Below are positions 19,599 through 25,598 of a stretch of 32,090 nucleotides of DNA, piece after piece. Each line of letters starts with the position of its first letter. Positions within the stretch are counted from its first letter, which is position 1. This stretch comes from Klenkia terrae (GTDB lineage Bacteria; Actinomycetota; Actinomycetes; Mycobacteriales; Geodermatophilaceae). The position numbers were made by a program, and so were the translations under genes. The notes beneath the pieces were generated by a model that did not search any database, was not told the DNA's origin, and saw only the letters and a program-made list of their open reading frames with translations. Where the stretch lies: assembly GCF_900491935.1 (NCBI RefSeq), contig NZ_UEXK01000004.1, forward strand, positions 127,247 through 159,336, read 5' to 3'.

Positions 19599-19643
19599 GT
19601 GGGCGATACTGGGATCGAACCAGTGACCTCTTCGGTGTGAACG
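19599..19643 (-). repeat. attL-like 45-bp direct repeat: displaced 3' fragment of tRNA-Val(CAC)
   Basis: These 45 bp are identical to 25526-25570. They cover the tRNA from the anticodon loop through the T arm, the acceptor 3' strand and the discriminator, then diverge on the island side. The 5' half of the tRNA is absent here, so this copy is a remnant of the original attachment site displaced by insertion. Confidence 0.92.
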
Positions 19644-19659
19644 CTGGTGGACCTCCGCG

Positions 19660-19754
19660 CTGACCTGGGCGAGAGCTGCTGACCTGGCGGTTCAGGTGTC
19701 GAGGGTGTCAGGGATGCAGGCGCTGTCCGTCGTCCTGGCGCACCAGCGGTGCAC
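19660..19754 (+). repeat. Arm-type-like repeats at left end of island
   Basis: CTGACCTGG occurs at 19660-19668 and 19679-19687, the second copy within CTGACCTGGCGGTTC. A 21-nt sequence at 19734-19754 (CCTGGCGCACCAGCGGTGCA plus C) recurs at the right end with one mismatch. Positions just inside the attachment core and the same orientation on both sides suggest former integrase arm-binding sites. Confidence 0.5.
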
Positions 19755-19762
19755 GGGCCGGG

Positions 19763-20228
19763 TCAGCCGAGCGAGACGTCGAAGCTCCAGCCATCCGCCT
19801 CGAGCTCGGCGGCGCTCTTGCTGATCTGGCCTTGGTCGCCGACCTCGACGGAGTAGAAGGCCGCGTCACCGAGGTCAGAGACCGTCACCGACCGAAGGCA
19901 GCCGCCGCCGATGTACGCGCCGTCCCCGAGGCTGGCCGCTCCGAGCAGAGCGCCGTCCCCATCGGTCACCCGGACCGGCGTCCCGGAGCCAATGTCGCTG
20001 TACCCGCCGGTGCCGTTGCAGCTCTTTCCCAGGTCGGAGTCGGTGAGCGAGAACGACACGTCGACGTCCTGGCCGCCGCGGAACGCGCCGGTGCTGATCA
20101 GTACGGAGACGACGAGCCCGATGGCCAGCAGCCCAGCGACGCCGGCAGCAACGCCAACGCCGACACCCGCTGGGACAACGCTAATCTCACGCTGCTGGCG
20201 ACCTGGGGTGCTCTCCGCTCAGTCCCAT
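19763..20228 (-). CDS. Membrane-anchored extracytoplasmic protein with apparent frameshift near its start
   Basis: The frame ending at 19763 encodes a Gly/Val-rich TM helix (AAGVAGLLAIGLVVSVLIST, about 20110-20155) and then an extracytoplasmic domain of about 105 residues with two cysteines (SLTDSDLGKSCNGTGGY and GGGCLRSVTV), ending FYSVEVGDQGQISKSAAEL. This pattern resembles a family of small actinobacterial exported proteins of unknown function. The frame stays open up to 20218, but no ATG/GTG/TTG precedes the TM; the first in-frame GTG (20059) falls after it. An ATG at 20228 in the adjacent frame would join by a 1-nt shift, possibly in the CCCC run near 20205. So the gene is either frameshifted or carries a sequencing error. 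Function unknown. Confidence 0.55.
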
Positions 20229-20232
20229 AGCC

Positions 20233-20907
20233 TCAGCCGGCGCTTGGTGTCGAGCGCGACCGTGGCTGGGTCTCCGCCACATAAGGCGTCACCGCTTCGC
20301 TGTCTGTCCTCAATCCAAACGGGCCGGGCCGCTCGGCCAACATGACCGCGGCCGCCAGTGGCTCAAGACCGCGATAGATGATCCGGCCAGCCGCCAGCAC
20401 AGTCAGCCGTAGCGCGCTCTCGGACTCCGCCCGCAGGTGCGCCAGCAGCTCCTTCTCAGGTGGTGCTGCGTCGTAGTGCACGCCGCCTTCTCGGTTGGCG
20501 TAGTGCTTGATCAACTCCCGGATGGTGACCTTCTCGTCACCCCGAACAAGGGTGTCGTGGCTCAGGAACTGCTGGAGCGTCCCCTCCCAGGGTGGGGAGT
20601 CGGCATTGACGCGACGAAGTTCTTCCGACTGCATCTCCGGGTGCAGATCCAGGAGAATTGGGTCAAGCCAGCTACCCGGCACCCACGCGACTCCCCCTTC
20701 GGCTCCGGTCGCTACACGCAGGCGCCCCCACCTAAAGCTGAGACGAAGACAAAACTGCCTGTTGACTTCGGCGTACAGCGGCCGACCATCCATCACCAGG
20801 CGGCGGATGAGCCCGGAGGCCTGGACCATGTCGTACTCGGACGCCCGCAGATCAGTCCTTCGACGGAGATCTTCGAGGGTGTCGATGAACAGGTCATCAG
20901 CATCCAT
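20233..20907 (-). CDS. Conserved protein of unknown function
   Basis: I do not recognise a named domain. The 224-aa protein is soluble-looking, with an N-terminal helical segment (ADDLFIDTLEDLRRR), a block LIRRLVMDGRPLYAEVNRQF, then TIRELIKHYANREGGVHYDA followed by PPEKELLAHL. The pattern of a hydrophobic helix followed by GGVH resembles hypothetical proteins I recall from scattered bacterial genomes. ATG 20907 is chosen because it begins the compact domain; the longer ATG at 20970 adds non-conserved residues and overlaps the divergent gene. No clear RBS is visible. It lies head-to-head, 36 bp from the small membrane protein at 20944. Confidence 0.7.
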   Translation of the reverse strand: MDADDLFIDTLEDLRRRTDLRASEYDMVQASGLIRRLVMDGRPLYAEVNRQFCLRLSFRWGRLRVATGAEGGVAWVPGSWLDPILLDLHPEMQSEELRRVNADSPPWEGTLQQFLSHDTLVRGDEKVTIRELIKHYANREGGVHYDAAPPEKELLAHLRAESESALRLTVLAAGRIIYRGLEPLAAAVMLAERPGPFGLRTDSEAVTPYVAETQPRSRSTPSAG

Positions 20908-20943
20908 GGTGCAACCGTAGGACGGTCCGAGAGGATGGGTTGC

Positions 20944-21186
20944 GTGACCAGTACAGACCAGCAGCGTCACCGGGCGCTGACGGCCGCGGCGCTCACTGCT
21001 GCGCTGTCGCTCGTGGGTTTGGTCTACACCGACAGGTGGCCGGGCTTGTGGGTCATCCTGCTCGCGGTCACGCTGGTCCAGGTGGCGTACTGGGCATGGA
21101 TCGGACGACCGGGGACCCGTGGCAGTGCTTCCACTTCAGCCCGCTCCAGCACGGGCAAGTCTGGTTGCGTCCCGGGCTCGCGGTAG
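20944..21186 (+). CDS. Small two-TM membrane protein, unknown function
   Basis: This 80-aa ORF has a short polar start (TSTDQQRHR) and two hydrophobic helices (ALTAAALTAALSLVGLVY and WPGLWVILLAVTLVQVAYWA), then a polar Ser/Gly tail. GAGAGG lies 9 nt before the GTG; an in-frame ATG at 20935 is an alternative. Its last 119 bp overlap the 3' end of the convergent SEC-C gene, where the tail is low in complexity, so the true end or the reality of the tail is uncertain. It may be co-regulated with the divergent gene at 20907. Confidence 0.5.
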   Translation: MTSTDQQRHRALTAAALTAALSLVGLVYTDRWPGLWVILLAVTLVQVAYWAWIGRPGTRGSASTSARSSTGKSGCVPGSR

Positions 21187-21733
21187 ATCCGGTGGTCTGC
21201 TCGACCACCGACCGAACCATCTGCTCGATTTGCCTCTCCGAGATGGGTGCCGGCGATCGTGCGGCGATGATCAGCGCAATCAGCGCAATGACCGCGCTGA
21301 TCCACATGCCGACCTCCATCCGGTTGTTCTGGTTGGACAGCCACATGGCCACCGGGGCGAGAGCCGGGTCGGTAGTCGTCAACCGGTTGGCAAGCTCCGC
21401 CTGACTCACCCCGGTCCCCCGCATGGATCGCAGCTCCGACTGCAGACCCTCCAGCTGAGACCGATCGAGGCCCCGCAGGGTCTTCGCGGCGAACTGGGTC
21501 ATCTTCAGGTAGCCGTCGGAGACGACGCCATCTCCGCCGCAGCGAGGACAGGGTCCGATCGTCATCTCGGAGAACGATCCGTCGCCGTCCACGGCGAACT
21601 GAGTCTCCCAGGGCAGCCCACACTTGGTGCACCACGCCGGCAGCCAGTCGGTGCGCTCTCCCTCGGGGATGGGCTTGACCGTGATCATCGGCTGATCCTC
21701 TGGCGGCACGCCCTCAGAGCTAAGCTTGCCCAT
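21068..21733 (-). CDS. Zinc-ribbon/TM/SEC-C domain protein
   Basis: This 221-aa protein has three parts. An N-terminal zinc ribbon is formed by C35-x2-C38 (WCTKCG) and C62-x2-C65 (PCPRCG). A middle helix region leads to a single TM helix at about 143-158 (MWISAVIALIALIIAA). A C-terminal SEC-C motif, RNQTCPCWSGLKWKHCHG, supplies C193, C195, C204 and H205. SEC-C zinc motifs occur in SecA and in many accessory and defence-linked proteins as interaction modules. GGGGGA lies 5 nt before the ATG. The role is unknown; a membrane-tethered sensor or adaptor is inference. Confidence 0.75.
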   Translation of the reverse strand: MGKLSSEGVPPEDQPMITVKPIPEGERTDWLPAWCTKCGLPWETQFAVDGDGSFSEMTIGPCPRCGGDGVVSDGYLKMTQFAAKTLRGLDRSQLEGLQSELRSMRGTGVSQAELANRLTTTDPALAPVAMWLSNQNNRMEVGMWISAVIALIALIIAARSPAPISERQIEQMVRSVVEQTTGSTASPGRNQTCPCWSGLKWKHCHGSPVVRSMPSTPPGPA

Positions 21734-21851
21734 GTCGATCCCCCAGATCGGCCACGCCCCGGGTCGATGCCAGTCGACGCCGGGGCCCTTGCTGTCGGGC
21801 GGACGCTACCTGCACGGAGGTTTCTGGGCCGTCCAGTATTGCCCATTAGGA

Positions 21852-21883
21852 CGGGGTGGGAACCTCGTAGCACTCCCACCCCG
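21852..21883 (-). terminator. Hairpin terminator after the 19-aa peptide ORF
   Basis: A 10-bp perfect stem (21852-21861 with 21874-21883, arm CGGGGTGGGA) and a 12-nt loop lie 16 bp downstream of the micro-ORF stop, in the intergenic space before the SEC-C gene. Confidence 0.7.
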
Positions 21884-21898
21884 CCCGCGCCGTCTGCC

Positions 21899-21958
21899 CT
21901 ACTTCGTCTCGCGAAGCAGAAACCGCAGAATGATCAAGCAGAGCACTATGAGCTCCAC
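21899..21958 (-). CDS. Candidate 19-aa hydrophobic peptide
   Basis: A GTG at 21958 opens a 19-codon frame, MELIVLCLIILRFLLRETK, consisting of one short hydrophobic helix with a basic end. It is preceded by an unusually strong purine-rich ribosome binding site (GGGGGAGGT, 5 nt before the start) and followed by a hairpin terminator. The layout of a short transcript with strong RBS, membrane peptide and terminator is like type I toxin or small regulatory membrane peptide genes. No antisense RNA is demonstrated. It could also be chance; no homologue is known to me. Confidence 0.45.
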   Translation of the reverse strand: MELIVLCLIILRFLLRETK

Positions 21959-22175
21959 CCTCCACCTCCCCCTACTGGCCTTTCTGGTTGAGAGGACCGG
22001 GAGTTAGCCGCAGGGGGGAGCGGTCGCGGAACCATCTTGCTGCGCTGACGCTTTGTCGTCTATCTCCGGCATCCTGCGCCCGACCGTTGGTGCCCAGTTC
22101 CGGTCGGCTGTGCCCGACACGACGCGCCCGTCGCGGGTTGCACACCCATAGGGGTCCGGGGGTAGGACTGCGGCC

Positions 22176-22319
22176 ATGACTGAGACCGCACGCCACGCCA
22201 TTAAGCCCAACACCACCTACGACCCGCAGAAAGCAACGGAGAGCGTCGACTGCATTTGCGGCGACCGGGTGCCTTCCGCGCAGATCGAACAGCACGTCCG
22301 CGACGGCAACGGGGAATAG
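22176..22319 (+). CDS. Candidate 47-aa cysteine-containing protein
   Basis: The ATG at 22176 opens a 47-aa ORF with VDCICGDRVPSAQIEQHV near the C-terminus, a C-x-C...H pattern that suggests a miniature zinc-binding fold like those of small phage or plasmid proteins. The RBS is weak (GGTAGGAC about 8 nt upstream). A hairpin follows 10 bp after the stop. Unknown function; moderately convincing because the ORF, motif and terminator agree. Confidence 0.5.
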   Translation: MTETARHAIKPNTTYDPQKATESVDCICGDRVPSAQIEQHVRDGNGE

Positions 22320-22329
22320 ACCAGGCAGT

Positions 22330-22360
22330 GCTGCCGCCAGACCCTCGGGCCGGCGGCAGC
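22330..22360 (+). terminator. Hairpin after the 47-aa ORF
   Basis: A 9-bp perfect stem (GCTGCCGCC at 22330-22338 with 22352-22360) closes a 13-nt loop, 10 bp after the small ORF stop. Confidence 0.65.
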
Positions 22361-22414
22361 CCGCCCGCCGCCGGCAGACCAGCGCCACTACCGGCCACAA
22401 CAGAAGTGAGGACA

Positions 22415-22460
22415 ACGCCAGCGCCCCCACTCGGCTACGGCCGGGCGGGGGCGCTGGCGT
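22415..22460. terminator. Strong terminator between convergent genes
   Basis: A 14-bp perfect stem (22415-22428 with 22447-22460, arm ACGCCAGCGCCCCC) closes an 18-nt loop. It lies 25 bp beyond the stop of the XRE/ImmA gene and downstream of the 47-aa ORF, so it can end transcription from both sides. Confidence 0.8.
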
Positions 22461-22485
22461 CGTGGTGGTGGCGCACGGTCGACAC

Positions 22486-23550
22486 CTAACGGACCGTGTT
22501 GCCGCCGATCACACGCAGGCCGTGGTGCTGCGTTCCTGTGTAAGGGCCGAGGTCGTCCCCCGTCGCGTAGCCGACCATCACCGCGATGTCCTGCGTGGTC
22601 AGCCCACTCGCGCGCATCGCGTCGCCGATGCTGGCGGCCAGCGTCGGGTGCTCAACAGCAACCTCCTCGCTGCCTGGCTCGCTGGTCTTCCACCCCAGAG
22701 CTGAGATCTGCCGGTAGAGAGCCGAACGCCTCTGCCCTGTGATCGTGCCCAGACTCGCCGCCCTCTCGATTAATGCCTGCACGGACACCCCCCACTCACG
22801 CTTTAGGTGGAGCAGTCGGCCCAGTTCGGGGTTCCGAAGCTGTGACTTGATGGCCTGCGAGGGCATCAGGAACTCGGCTGCGAACGCGAACGCGTCGCGC
22901 TCGATGTCGTCGGTGGGTTCGTTGCGGTGCAGGCACAGATGCCCCAGCTCGTGCGCCAGGGTGAGTCGCTTCCGGTCGGTCGGCGCGGTGCTGTTGATCA
23001 GCGCAACAGGGTGCCCGGCGATCCACTGCGACAAGCCCTCGACCCGACGGGTGCCGAAGTCCTCCTCGACCACAACGCAGCCAGCTGACTCCATCCACCC
23101 CATCAGCTGCCGGACCGGTCCAGCAGGCATCCGCCACTGCATCCGCACCATGCGCGCCGCGTCGTCAGGCGCAGTCTCGAACGGATCGAAGGTCGGCACG
23201 GTATTTCGCGCCTGCATCTGCACCTGCTCGAGCAGCTTGCCCGCGCGGAGCCGGTGAAGGTTCAGGCGCGCCTCTAGCATCCGCCATTTGGTAGGTGGGG
23301 CGGTCTTCGACTTGCGCATATGCACGTCGACGCCCAGCGCGCCCTCAATGTCTCGACCGCGAAGAAGGATGTCGGGGGTCACGCCCACCGCCGCCGCGAT
23401 TGACCGAAGGTCTTCGTCGCTCGGAGTGCGGAGGTCGTGCTCCCACCGAGACAACGTCGCCTGAGTCACGCCAGCGCGCTCTGCGATCTCGCCCTGTGTC
23501 CATCCTCCGGCCCGGCGGGCCATCTCGATGGCCGCTCCGAGCGTGCTCAT
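22486..23550 (-). CDS. XRE-HTH / ImmA-IrrE metallopeptidase fusion regulator
   Basis: This 354-aa protein starts with an XRE helix-turn-helix (residues 3-58; WTQGEIAERAGVTQATLSRW). A linker leads to an ImmA/IrrE-type zinc peptidase with the HELGH motif at 200-204 (TLAHELGHLCLH) and the downstream glutamate-containing helix ERDAFAFAAEFLMP. The C-terminal 80 residues extend beyond the peptidase and end in a segment with TTQDIAVMVGYA. In integrative elements such as ICEBs1, the separate ImmA protease cleaves the ImmR repressor; here both functions are in one chain. The ATG overlaps the stop of the 203-aa gene (ATGA), so the two are translated together. Likely a self-contained switch or a toxin-antitoxin-like partner. 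Confidence 0.9.
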   Translation of the reverse strand: MSTLGAAIEMARRAGGWTQGEIAERAGVTQATLSRWEHDLRTPSDEDLRSIAAAVGVTPDILLRGRDIEGALGVDVHMRKSKTAPPTKWRMLEARLNLHRLRAGKLLEQVQMQARNTVPTFDPFETAPDDAARMVRMQWRMPAGPVRQLMGWMESAGCVVVEEDFGTRRVEGLSQWIAGHPVALINSTAPTDRKRLTLAHELGHLCLHRNEPTDDIERDAFAFAAEFLMPSQAIKSQLRNPELGRLLHLKREWGVSVQALIERAASLGTITGQRRSALYRQISALGWKTSEPGSEEVAVEHPTLAASIGDAMRASGLTTQDIAVMVGYATGDDLGPYTGTQHHGLRVIGGNTVR

Positions 23551-24158
23551 CCTCGGCCAATCTCCCGCGCGGGTGCGCTCGGCATCACGATGGTGGGCAG
23601 CTGCGGCCCGTCGACCGGGCCCTGGATCACCGAAATGTCGCCGCTGCCCTCGCCGCCGATCCTGGGCAGCTCGATCACCCACAGCGGCTTGTCCATGCTG
23701 ACGTGCAAGCTCATAACGGCCCGGCCCATACTGCCCAGGTTCTTGTCCCACTCGTAGCCGACCGCGAGGTTGACGCATTCCATCGACGGCAGGGTGGCTG
23801 GCGGCTCGGCCCAGAAGTCGAGCGCGGTCTGGGTCGGGTAGCTGACCACCCCTCCGGCGCTGTCGTGCAGCTTGAACCGCACCTGGAACTGGCTGCCGAT
23901 GTGCAGATTTCGCGTGGTGCCCTTCTCCACAGCGTGCAGACCGTCGAGGTCCTCACTCAGGTCGACGACCCGGTGCCAGATGCGCTCGTGGATCAGGTTG
24001 AACGTCATCCGTCCGCAGTCCTGCGCTGCCCAGACGGGGAAGGCGCCGACGTACCGGTTGTAGTCCTCGCGTGCTCCGTCCACCGCCGTCCGGAAGAGCT
24101 CCATCGACTTATCGCCGAGGAGCATCACCACGTTGTCGGGCGAGGCCGTGTAGATCAT
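23547..24158 (-). CDS. Unknown 203-aa partner of the XRE/ImmA protein
   Basis: I recognise no named domain. The protein looks soluble and globular, with blocks GRMTFNLIHERIWHRVVDL (about 49-67), GSQFQVRFKLHD and VSYPTQTALDFW, then VNLAVGYEWDKNLGSMGRAVMSL and PLWVIELP. I recall similar unnamed proteins directly upstream of XRE/ImmA genes in other actinobacteria, but cannot verify this here. The stop overlaps the downstream ATG by 4 bp. The ATG at 24158 lies inside a promoter-like AT-rich repeat and lacks an RBS, so the mRNA may be leaderless or start at a later Met (24125 or 24104). The operon fits a regulator-plus-effector pair; which is effector is unknown. Confidence 0.8.
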   Translation of the reverse strand: MIYTASPDNVVMLLGDKSMELFRTAVDGAREDYNRYVGAFPVWAAQDCGRMTFNLIHERIWHRVVDLSEDLDGLHAVEKGTTRNLHIGSQFQVRFKLHDSAGGVVSYPTQTALDFWAEPPATLPSMECVNLAVGYEWDKNLGSMGRAVMSLHVSMDKPLWVIELPRIGGEGSGDISVIQGPVDGPQLPTIVMPSAPAREIGRG

Positions 24159-24173
24159 ACCGCGAAATATACC
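24157..24173 (-). promoter_or_regulatory. AT-rich promoter/operator candidate for the XRE/ImmA operon
   Basis: On the minus strand the sequence GTGGTATATTTCGCGGTATGAT holds two GGTAT copies 12 bp apart (24157-24161 and 24169-24173) and two -10-like hexamers, TATATT and TATGAT. It is a rare AT-rich patch in this GC-rich DNA. It overlaps the first ATG of the operon. The direct repeat, about one helical turn apart, is a plausible site for the XRE domain. Confidence 0.4.
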
Positions 24174-24212
24174 ACTCTTCCCGGTCGACCGCGCCCACCA
24201 CGTCGGCAGCCG

Positions 24213-24447
24213 TCAGGCCTGCGGCAGGAGGCCAACCGTCGCTGACCACCGCCACCAAGTGCGCCCGTGGTCGTCGACGTCGTCGTCCAGGTCGGTGACG
24301 ACCATGACGTCCAATCGGGGTGCGCGCCGGCGTCGGCGGCGGCCAGGCGCAGCCGGCCCCGAAGCGCGGCCTCGGCTCGGGCCCGGCCCGGGGACGGGAA
24401 GGACACCGTCGCCTCGAGCTGCTGCACGACCACCTCGCATATGGCTC
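24213..24447 (-). pseudogene. Small gene with apparent internal frameshift
   Basis: Two overlapping minus-strand frames each carry half of a plausible protein. One frame gives CEVVVQQLEATVSFPSP followed by RARAEAALRGRLRLAAADAG (about 24325-24440). The next frame continues with LDVMVVTDLDDDVDDHGR and TWWRWSATVGLLPQA to the stop at 24213. The switch lies near 24315-24325 around ACCCCGATTGG. An uninterrupted frame from ATG 24447 exists but its first half is Arg/Gly-rich shadow sequence. The combined product would be about 77 aa and of unknown function. It is either a decayed gene or a base-call error. Confidence 0.45.
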
Positions 24448-24477
24448 CCGCCGGCCACGGGGGTAACCGGCGGGAGC
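24444..24477 (-). terminator. Hairpin upstream of the frameshifted gene
   Basis: An 11-bp perfect stem (GCTCCCGCCGG at 24444-24454 with 24467-24477) closes a 12-nt loop. On the minus strand its 3' arm contains GGCGGGAG just before an ATG, so besides ending upstream transcription it might mask a ribosome binding site. Confidence 0.55.
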
Positions 24478-24511
24478 AGCTTCCACGGTATGCCCGGTCA
24501 CCGACAGAACG

Positions 24512-24551
24512 AAGCCCCACTGACCACCCGCATGGGTGGTCGGTAGGGCTT
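24512..24551 (-). terminator. Terminator of the 63-aa membrane protein gene
   Basis: An 18-bp arm (24512-24529) pairs with 24534-24551 with one mismatch and one G-U pair around a 4-nt loop. On the minus strand it is followed by TTCGTTCTGT, giving a near-classic intrinsic terminator 16 bp after the gene. Confidence 0.8.
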
Positions 24552-24567
24552 ACTCATCGTCCGGGTA

Positions 24568-24759
24568 CTACCGGTTGGCGTCGGCGATCTGGATCAATAC
24601 CAGCAGCACGCCGACGACGGTCACCCAGAAGAAGACCTGCAGGATCAACTTGATCGTCGACACGTCCCGGGCCTGGGCCTCGATGGCCCTCGTCTGCCGC
24701 TCCAGGTGGCTAGCCTGGTACTGCTCGAACGTCTGGGGCATCCCAGCTGGGTTGGTCAT
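24568..24759 (-). CDS. Small single-TM protein, unknown function
   Basis: This 63-aa protein has a polar, helical N-terminal half likely to form a short coiled coil (FEQYQASHLERQTRAIEAQ) and a C-terminal TM helix (LILQVFFWVTVVGVLLVLIQI), ending in the cytoplasmic-type tail ADANR. GGGGGA lies 3 nt before the ATG. A -10-like TAGCGT is seen about 30 nt further upstream. It is followed by a clear intrinsic terminator. Its leader shares 17 nt (one mismatch) with that of the lipoprotein gene at 25331. Function unknown; small tail-anchored proteins like this are common in actinobacterial mobile elements. Confidence 0.7.
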   Translation of the reverse strand: MTNPAGMPQTFEQYQASHLERQTRAIEAQARDVSTIKLILQVFFWVTVVGVLLVLIQIADANR

Positions 24760-24911
24760 GGTTCCCCCGTGGTCATGGTCGTTCCGAGACGCTAGCGCGC
24801 GGCTCGGCCGCGCATCCGGCTGCCGCGCAGCCGTCGCACGAGCAGCGGCTGAGCGGCCAGCGCATCAGGTCGACCGCATCGCCATGTTCCTGTCCGGGGG
24901 TGGCCGGGTGA

Positions 24912-25331
24912 TCACGCAGGAGGGACCACGACTCCGAGCGCGGCCTGAGTGCCCGCGTCGTAGACCACTCGAGCGTCCGGGCAGTAGGCGTCAATGAAAT
25001 AGGCCCGGTCCACCAACACCTCAGCCAGCTCGCTCTCGGTGTAGAGCGACTGCATCCCGGTCACCAGGCCAGACATGTCCGCGACGGTGTTGTCGCAGGT
25101 GTTGCCTGCGACGCTGACGGCCTCCTGCTCGGTGATGCCCGGGGAGATGCCGCGAGCCGAGACGGCGTCGGTGTAGGCCTCATAGGGCTCAACCGGCTCC
25201 GGAGCCGCGCTGGTGGTGGCCGACGAGCTGCTGGACGTAACCGTTGGGCCAGTGCTGGAGGAATCGTTGTCGGTCCCCCCGCACGCTGCGAGGAGAAGAG
25301 CTGGCAGGCAGAGCAGGGCAGCGCGGCGCAT
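24912..25331 (-). CDS. Lipoprotein with DUF732-like domain
   Basis: This 139-aa protein has a lipoprotein signal peptide, MRRAALLCLPALLLAACGG, with lipobox LLAAC, then a Ser/Thr linker and a C-terminal helical domain with two cysteines (AGNTCDN and DAYCPD). The block AYTDAVSARGISPG resembles the DUF732 pattern of small actinobacterial exported proteins. I choose ATG 25331 because GGGGGA precedes it by 4 nt and the signal peptide starts there; an upstream ATG at 25361 is less likely. It is the rightmost island gene, reading away from the tRNA. Function unknown; surface exclusion or a cargo role is only a guess. Confidence 0.75.
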   Translation of the reverse strand: MRRAALLCLPALLLAACGGTDNDSSSTGPTVTSSSSSATTSAAPEPVEPYEAYTDAVSARGISPGITEQEAVSVAGNTCDNTVADMSGLVTGMQSLYTESELAEVLVDRAYFIDAYCPDARVVYDAGTQAALGVVVPPA

Positions 25332-25441
25332 CGAGTCCCCCGTGGTCGTGGTGTCCCGCACGGTACCGACACTGCCTCGTCCACAAGGTCGACTCGCCGC
25401 GTGCGACCTGGAACGCCATCCGCCAGCACGACGCTAATGAG

Positions 25442-25520
25442 CCTGGCGCACCAGCGGCGCACGCCCAGGAACGCAGCAGGGGCCGCACCCTAGTGGATGC
25501 GGCCCCTGACCTGGGGGTTC
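25442..25520 (+). repeat. Arm-type-like repeats at right end of island
   Basis: Positions 25442-25462 match 19734-19754 in 20 of 21 bases. Positions 25506-25520 (CTGACCTGGGGGTTC) match 19679-19693 in 14 of 15. Both are in the same orientation as at the left end. In a circularised element they would flank the attachment core as R2-R1-core-R1-R1-R2. Confidence 0.5.
25477..25508. terminator. Hairpin terminator downstream of tRNA-Val(CAC)
   Basis: An 11-bp perfect stem (CAGGGGCCGCA at 25477-25487 with 25498-25508) closes a 10-nt loop, 18 bp beyond the tRNA 3' end on the minus strand. It appears to be carried by the island and replaces the terminator displaced to 19563. Confidence 0.75.
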
Positions 25521-25525
25521 TTGCT

Positions 25526-25570
25526 GTGGGCGATACTGGGATCGAACCAGTGACCTCTTCGGTGTGAACG
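25526..25570 (-). repeat. attR-like 45-bp direct repeat within tRNA-Val(CAC)
   Basis: Identical to 19599-19643. It begins 1 bp beyond the tRNA 3' end and runs to the anticodon loop, so the integrated element supplies the 3' part and keeps the tRNA functional. Confidence 0.92.
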
Positions 25571-25598
25571 AAGCGCTCTACCGCTGAGCCAATCGCCC
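25527..25598 (-). tRNA. tRNA-Val (anticodon CAC)
   Basis: A complete 72-nt cloverleaf: acceptor GGGCGAT/ATCGCCC, D arm GCTC..GAGC, anticodon stem CTTCG/CGAAG with loop TTCACAC (anticodon CAC), T arm ACTGG/CCAGT with TTCGATC, discriminator A, and no encoded CCA. It is the integration target of the adjacent island. Confidence 0.95.

Follow-up and report, generated by a model that had tools for sequence, protein, structure and literature searches.

RosmerTA systems couple different toxins to one kind of antitoxin, RmrA, and the pair of Gordonia phage Kita is toxic and antiphage, with a toxin that has predicted membrane segments and depolarises membranes (PMC10440598, excerpts). Other described systems close to the locus treated here are the Xre-COG2856 operons, in which XRE is fused to a Zn peptidase and forms an operon with a second gene (Makarova 2009; PMC2701414, excerpts), and PD-lambda-2, which combines an Xre-peptidase with a partner gene (PMC9519451, excerpts). 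We have analyzed a gene pair of this general kind in a stretch of 32,090 nucleotides (nt) of Klenkia terrae (contig NZ_UEXK01000004.1, hereafter the window, to which all coordinates of the pair and its surroundings refer). It consists of genes for a 203-amino-acid (aa) protein and for a 354-aa fusion of an XRE helix-turn-helix (HTH) and an M78 (ImmA/IrrE) zinc peptidase. The two genes most likely make up an anti-phage toxin-antitoxin unit, and what we consider the probable explanation, judging from the sequence, is a RosmerTA-like module with a new family of toxins, located on a small integrated island.

The 203-aa open reading frame (ORF) is found upstream and its end overlaps the start of the XRE-M78 ORF by ATGA on the minus strand, with the lengths, coordinates and overlap that an earlier note on this DNA had described. 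Among 16 aligned pairs, the overlap was of 4 nt in 13, of 1 nt in two phages, and was replaced by a gap of 3 nt in one prophage. This set excludes locus L005 (internal stop), L009 and L011 (split gene), L017 (shifted C-terminus) and the copies of kept loci (L002, L003, L006-L008, L031, L036, L039-L042 and L043-L045), and its rows are not independent, L014, L015 and L020 being Amycolatopsis with closely similar genes and L022 and L023 similar phages. The larger protein matched Pfam HTH_3 (expectation value, E, 2.3e-14) and Peptidase_M78 (1.2e-20), as well as the PADLOC profile of RmrA with an E of 9.5e-54 over residues 8-327, i.e., it shows the XRE HTH plus ImmA peptidase make-up of the RosmerTA antitoxin. 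The nearest NCBIfam model was the spr1629 repressor/antitoxin (score 97, cut-off 335). The HELGH motif begins at residue 200 and is kept in 16 of 16 aligned copies. HTH and peptidase are parts of one fused protein, unlike the separate proteins of ImmA/ImmR and IrrE/DdrO.

The two genes are conserved together. The 203-aa protein was detected in 3 of 97 relatives (source genome included) and in one of 57 genomes of the source family, which is the source genome itself. Within the order, 10 of 397 genomes had it at E<=0.001, and in nine of these the match was at E<=5e-11. The XRE-M78 peptidase appeared in 19 of the 397 at E<=1e-35. Nine of these 19 are at least 51% identical and nearly full length, and they come from the same nine genomes that have the clear 203-aa relatives, so that the survey of co-occurrence proposed in the earlier note gave the partner in nine of nine cases; the next peptidases of comparable length in the order are at most 42% identical. 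No second relative of either gene was found in the source genome. The toxin profile was also run over 394 genomes of the class, where eight matched at E<=1e-5 (source genome included). Six of the matches were new, and the four that were read all had both genes, with the XRE-ImmA gene directly 3' (49-55% identity); the shared sequence is ATGA in three loci and, provided that translation begins at GTG, GTGA in the fourth. Carriers named in these searches include Actinokineospora, Amycolatopsis and a Pseudonocardiales metagenome-assembled genome (MAG). Besides, the identity matrices of toxin and antitoxin correlate with an r of 0.96, a value reached by none of 2000 permutations (16 loci, several of them closely related).

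The roles of the two proteins could be reversed as in PD-lambda-2, with the XRE-peptidase as toxic component or effector and the 203-aa protein as its inhibitor. The Xre-peptidase of PD-lambda-2 is toxic alone and rescued by component A (PMC9519451, excerpts), a precedent that counts against the assignment made here, and divergence is faster in the 203-aa protein than in the peptidase (45% vs 59% mean identity between pairs of the 16 loci), something that fits either role. However, the closest profiles to the XRE-M78 protein are those of RmrA, an antitoxin, and PD-Lambda-2_B is absent from the 22 PADLOC families that match it at E<=1. Pneumococcal COG2856 genes tried as putative toxins had no effect (PMC4257102, excerpts), and PD-lambda-2 differs in having a HigB-like partner and a third gene (PMC9519451, excerpts), whereas neither the PD-Lambda-2_B match nor a HigB partner was found here in PADLOC at E<=1. 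We regard exchanged roles as unlikely, and take the upstream gene as the probable toxin and the downstream one as the probable antitoxin.

The start of the toxin gene is occupied by a conserved element, GGTATATTTCGCGGTATG, in which two copies of GGTAT have their starts 12 nt apart and the second one extends into the start codon. We compared the upstream regions of 17 loci (the 16 pairs plus L017, the start of which could be used). Their consensus is GGTATATTTTCTGGT directly 5' of the ATG, GGTATATTTCGCGGTATG being the Klenkia form, and the element is kept in 16 of the 17 although the 15 other toxins of the 16-locus set are just 25-35% identical to the Klenkia one. Positions -15 to -5 agree in 15-17 loci and positions -4 and -1 in 12, and the flanks are near-random (never above 1.0 bit from -16 to -60). 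The conservation reaches into the gene: where codon 2 is Phe it is TTT in 10 of 10 rows, vs 13 of 90 Phe codons from codon 5 onward, and where codon 3 is Ser it is TCA in 11 of 13, vs 12 of 209 (in both cases the rows are related). A relaxed pattern (up to three mismatches) matched once in the window, vs 0.02 expected from shuffles.

The AT-rich GGTAT direct repeat announced by the earlier note as a promoter is thus present and conserved. The term promoter itself is supported by this conservation and by a TATATT hexamer located 7 nt before the A of the toxin ATG, since a general scan of positions 22300..24600 gave no two-hexamer sigma-70-like site. The element is probably a leaderless -10 (TATATT) combined with a 12-nt-spaced repeat to which the XRE domain would bind. 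As such a promoter-operator covers the start codon and reaches codons 2-3, one protein at one site could shut off a leaderless operon.

The pattern GGTATATTTYNYGGYATG was found in 5 of the 397 genomes of the order, once in each and always at the start of the toxin gene, and its reversed control in none, i.e., an exact search of 18 nt retrieves the module and nothing else and provides a simple DNA handle. The remaining four of the nine carriers lack the exact element: one base differs in G223, G295 has lost one 12-nt unit and has an internal stop, no element was seen in G133 (split toxin gene), and the upstream DNA of G069 differs. All four loci read later have some form of it, two exact, one degenerate (GGCATAATTACTGGCATG) and one partial, with GGTATATTTTCC in place, ACC for GGT before the ATG and GGTATAAAATCC just upstream. 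Among viral contigs, a narrower pattern gave 10 exact matches, four of which are the module (L031 and L036 with the same sequence) and six not (four with a guanine-plus-cytosine content, GC, of 0.32-0.37, one of 0.49 and one of 0.63), so the element alone is unspecific outside GC-rich bacterial genomes. As separate observations, L124 has, upstream of its toxin start, one more GGTATAAAATCC unit placed 12 nt ahead of GGTATATTTTCC, in agreement with an operator of 12-nt repeats. In L005 (1414-2067), loss of one 12-nt unit between the two GGTAT copies is accompanied by a stop in the toxin gene, which looks like decay.

The pair is carried by mobile DNA. The toxin is present in eight phage records, seven of Gordonia and the M. 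abscessus prophage prophiGD44-1; five of the seven Gordonia records, two of them of phage Howe, share 2.7 kb without a difference. Five Rhodococcus plasmids also carry the pair. A scan of viral sequences with a first alignment found none, one with a second alignment found three loci, and one with Opie gp34 (see below) found none. In the phages Howe and BBQValindra the pair adjoins an integrase gene. The integrase plus pair of Howe, used as query, matched 93 phage records in some part, and six hold at least 80% of it; among the 40 of these 93 matches that were listed, 33 cover the integrase part alone, and because of this the pair looks like variable cargo in phages. An adjacent, co-conserved two-gene unit on mobile DNA, as in RosmerTA, is what these data describe. 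Together with the match to RmrA, carriage on temperate phages and plasmids supports the toxin-antitoxin or phage-responsive role that the earlier note had suggested.

In Klenkia the pair lies between two identical 45-nt repeats, one of them within tRNA-Val (Table 1). In G003, of the same genus, both flanks are contiguous and overlap by exactly these 45 nt, from which we conclude that the 5.9 kb with the pair were inserted at tRNA-Val. G006 fits an empty site at this tRNA, with other differences further left, and G004 carries other DNA of about 0.4 kb at this place. The ORFs of the island (19599-25570) that were tested included no integrase. Further proteins encoded on the island are one of 224/245 aa that had no match, a small lipoprotein-like protein, one of 63 aa with a hydrophobic segment and, at 21068-21733, one of 221 aa that combines two CxxC pairs and a hydrophobic stretch with a SEC-C motif at its C-terminus (Pfam E 2.5e-6; weak PADLOC match to PDC-S12, 3.3e-4).

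Such carriage would also suit a lysogeny or element-maintenance switch, in which the XRE-M78 protein would be a repressor with its own protease and the 203-aa protein an anti-repressor or sensor, regulating the genes of the element instead of killing. The integrase next to the pair in Howe and BBQValindra, and likewise next to a remote relative on a Polaromonas plasmid, goes in this direction, and ImmA/ImmR and IrrE/DdrO are switches of this type (PMC2701414, excerpts, and general knowledge). However, the exact genome matches of the element stand before the toxin gene only and not before other genes of the element, the Klenkia island lacks a detectable integrase, and the Howe matches listed are mostly of the integrase part without the pair. 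We find a switch improbable, to the same degree as exchanged roles, and prefer the toxin-antitoxin module.

Table 1. Features of the gene pair and of its integration site (window coordinates).
Feature	Position	Strand	Basis
203-aa protein, probable toxin of a new family, core R94-x-K96/T109/W160	23547..24158	-	ORF, XRE-M78-adjoining relatives, no library match
354-aa XRE HTH + M78 (ImmA/IrrE) zinc peptidase, RmrA-like probable antitoxin/autorepressor	22486..23550	-	Pfam, PADLOC, HELGH
4-nt ATGA overlap, both genes	23547..23550	-	ORF coordinates; 4-nt overlap (ATGA or GTGA) in 13/16 loci
Conserved element GGTATATTTCGCGGTATG spanning the start codon; probable leaderless -10 + GGTAT repeat operator	24156..24173	-	Conservation
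tRNA-Val(CAC), integration target	25526..25598	-	tRNA prediction
45-nt direct repeat, 3' part of tRNA-Val, one attachment (att) site	25526..25570	.	Repeat comparison
Second identical 45-nt copy, other att site	19599..19643	.	Intervening DNA absent at the same site in G003

Pfam, NCBIfam and PADLOC contained no model matching the 203-aa protein at E<=1 (best in PHROGs 0.24), so that no domain of any kind, let alone the housekeeping one that the earlier note had named as contrary evidence, was detected. This also distinguishes the pair from the Xre-COG2856 operons, in which the partners are mostly RelE or PIN (PMC2701414, excerpts). A profile of the 16 toxins, searched against a set of 210 sequences, matched the XRE-ImmA partner on Rhizobium pRLG203 (6.3e-8), gp30 of Acinetobacter phage ABMM1 (2e-7) and the actinobacterial locus L077 (7.1e-7), the best shuffled control being 0.019. 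Comparing the profiles of the actinobacterial and proteobacterial groups gave a 97.3% probability; the score was 76.6, and none of 100 shuffles exceeded 21.6. PHROG 15813, of unknown function, includes the proteobacterial branch. When viral sequences were scanned with ABMM1 gp30, 27 loci were retrieved, 25 with 100% identity. Homologous partners precede the XRE-ImmA genes in the Acinetobacter phage and in Rhizobium, Roseicitreum and Polaromonas plasmids, i.e., the arrangement is the same, but these are Pseudomonadota and the kinship is visible by profiles alone. The earlier note called the 203-aa protein undescribed; this needs some qualification, as public databases contain relatives under the name of hypothetical proteins and a remote branch is a PHROG without assigned function. 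Among the literature titles and abstract openings listed, none describes the toxin family or the element, although the family may be part of the NetFlax data sets.

Several candidates have not been relied on. The frame upstream in L071 reached 8.1e-4 with the first profile but 0.019 with the 16-row profile, the value of the best shuffled control, and was not counted as a relative. The XRE-ImmA partners on Streptomyces and Microbacterium plasmids are unrelated to the family by profile. Weak matches of single members among eight aligned toxins (YxiG_2 0.033, DUF7531 0.11, Rv0078B 0.16, and the tail protein phrog_34934 at 9.4e-4 in one of the eight) were set aside.

Over 22 rows, R94, K96, T109 and W160 are invariant and Y135 and R50 are kept in 21. 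A search for solved relatives found none (best E 1.2), and Foldseek with models of the family gave nothing at E<=0.001 in PDB and BFVD; the leaders of its second list, a Rep15 chain (8a4c, E 0.065) and a tRNA-splicing endonuclease (5x89, E 0.11), were not used. That the toxin is a canonical metal-dependent PD-(D/E)XK nuclease is very improbable, since all 22 rows have R94-x-K96, located on strand three of the prediction, in place of the D...(D/E)-x-K motif. The comparison with the restriction-endonuclease-like fold used models with a predicted local distance difference test (pLDDT) of 69 and 73. A broader proposal, which we advance tentatively, would make the 203-aa protein the founder of an undescribed toxin superfamily of two phyla, with R-x-K, T and W at its core. 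It would perhaps be a metal-independent nuclease that uses a restriction-enzyme-like frame, and a self-contained HTH-protease would hold and release it, under a promoter-operator that extends over the start codon into codons 2-3.

The RosmerTA-like module that we favor shares with RosmerTA an XRE plus ImmA antitoxin beside a toxin gene and the carriage by phages, and the toxin-first order is also that of 58% of the ImmA node (PMC10440598, excerpts). Kita itself was not among the 31 phage records found with the XRE-M78 protein at E<=1e-5. Gordonia phage Opie (gp34/gp33, of the RmrT PDLC03939 type) similarly has an upstream toxin overlapping a downstream XRE-ImmA gene, but its XRE-ImmA protein is 27.9% identical to ours and gp34 is an RmrT unrelated to the 203-aa family by profile comparison (0.1% probability, equalled by 46 of 100 shuffles), a kinship that a similar PTQ.AL.F stretch had suggested by eye.

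Some observations weigh against this interpretation. PADLOC, which includes an RmrT model that matched Opie gp34 at 2.6e-12, recognised none of eight aligned members, the 203-aa protein among them, at E<=1. As RmrA pairs with different toxins (PMC10440598, excerpts), this lowers the probability of RosmerTA as modelled and not that of a module working like RosmerTA. Incomplete loci exist: the XRE-ImmA remnant of G157 (149 residues at 55% identity, HDLGH for HELGH, HTH not found in the frame read) comes without a toxin match, G168 has a weak toxin fragment (E 7.9e-4, internal stop) without XRE-ImmA at E<=1e-35, and the MAG locus L016 is devoid of the upstream half of the element. Finally, both frames of the Klenkia copy are open, but its toxin has H at position 152, where the 15 other rows of the 16-locus set and five of five proteobacterial rows have R and L077 has P. 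R97, which all 15 others share, is L in this toxin, and its peptidase has F at N221 (N in 15 of 15 others); because of these replacements, this copy may be weakened or retuned.

The following mechanism can be proposed from sequence comparison. The RmrA-like protein would neutralise the toxin and also bind the GGTAT repeats over the -10 and the start codon, repressing its own leaderless operon. Phage infection would inactivate it, perhaps through its own peptidase cutting the HTH (as ImmA acts on ImmR and IrrE on DdrO), and with its loss the toxin would be both freed and derepressed, stopping growth, probably by acting on nucleic acid, in defence against the phage. The target of the toxin is the weakest part of this explanation. 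The mechanism can be tested directly, as four residues are invariant and the position of the proposed operator is known. If the assignment holds, the 203-aa family adds a partner to the single antitoxin kind of RosmerTA-type modules (PMC10440598, excerpts), one missed or left without function by the libraries searched and distributed over Actinomycetota and Pseudomonadota, with phages and plasmids among its carriers. PMC12421847 served as context and PMC4982280 as the source of an accession (both excerpts).

Other XRE-ImmA loci showed different surroundings. In L071 and L077 (two genomes of one genus, f8/g19) the distant XRE-ImmA genes are each at most about 1 kb upstream of a gene that we take to be rpsJ-like, perhaps an insertion spot. 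L070, L073, L076 and L079 have XRE-ImmA genes followed by frames of about 380-440 aa, alike by eye, and no 203-aa relative upstream, perhaps a different unit. On the plasmids of L086 (Microbacterium) and L080 (Acinetobacter) the XRE-ImmA gene is near ThiF-type genes, in one case with multiubiquitin and E2. In L116 and L117, on plasmids of Glutamicibacter and Arthrobacter, an Abi family gene comes after the RmrT/RmrA-type pair.
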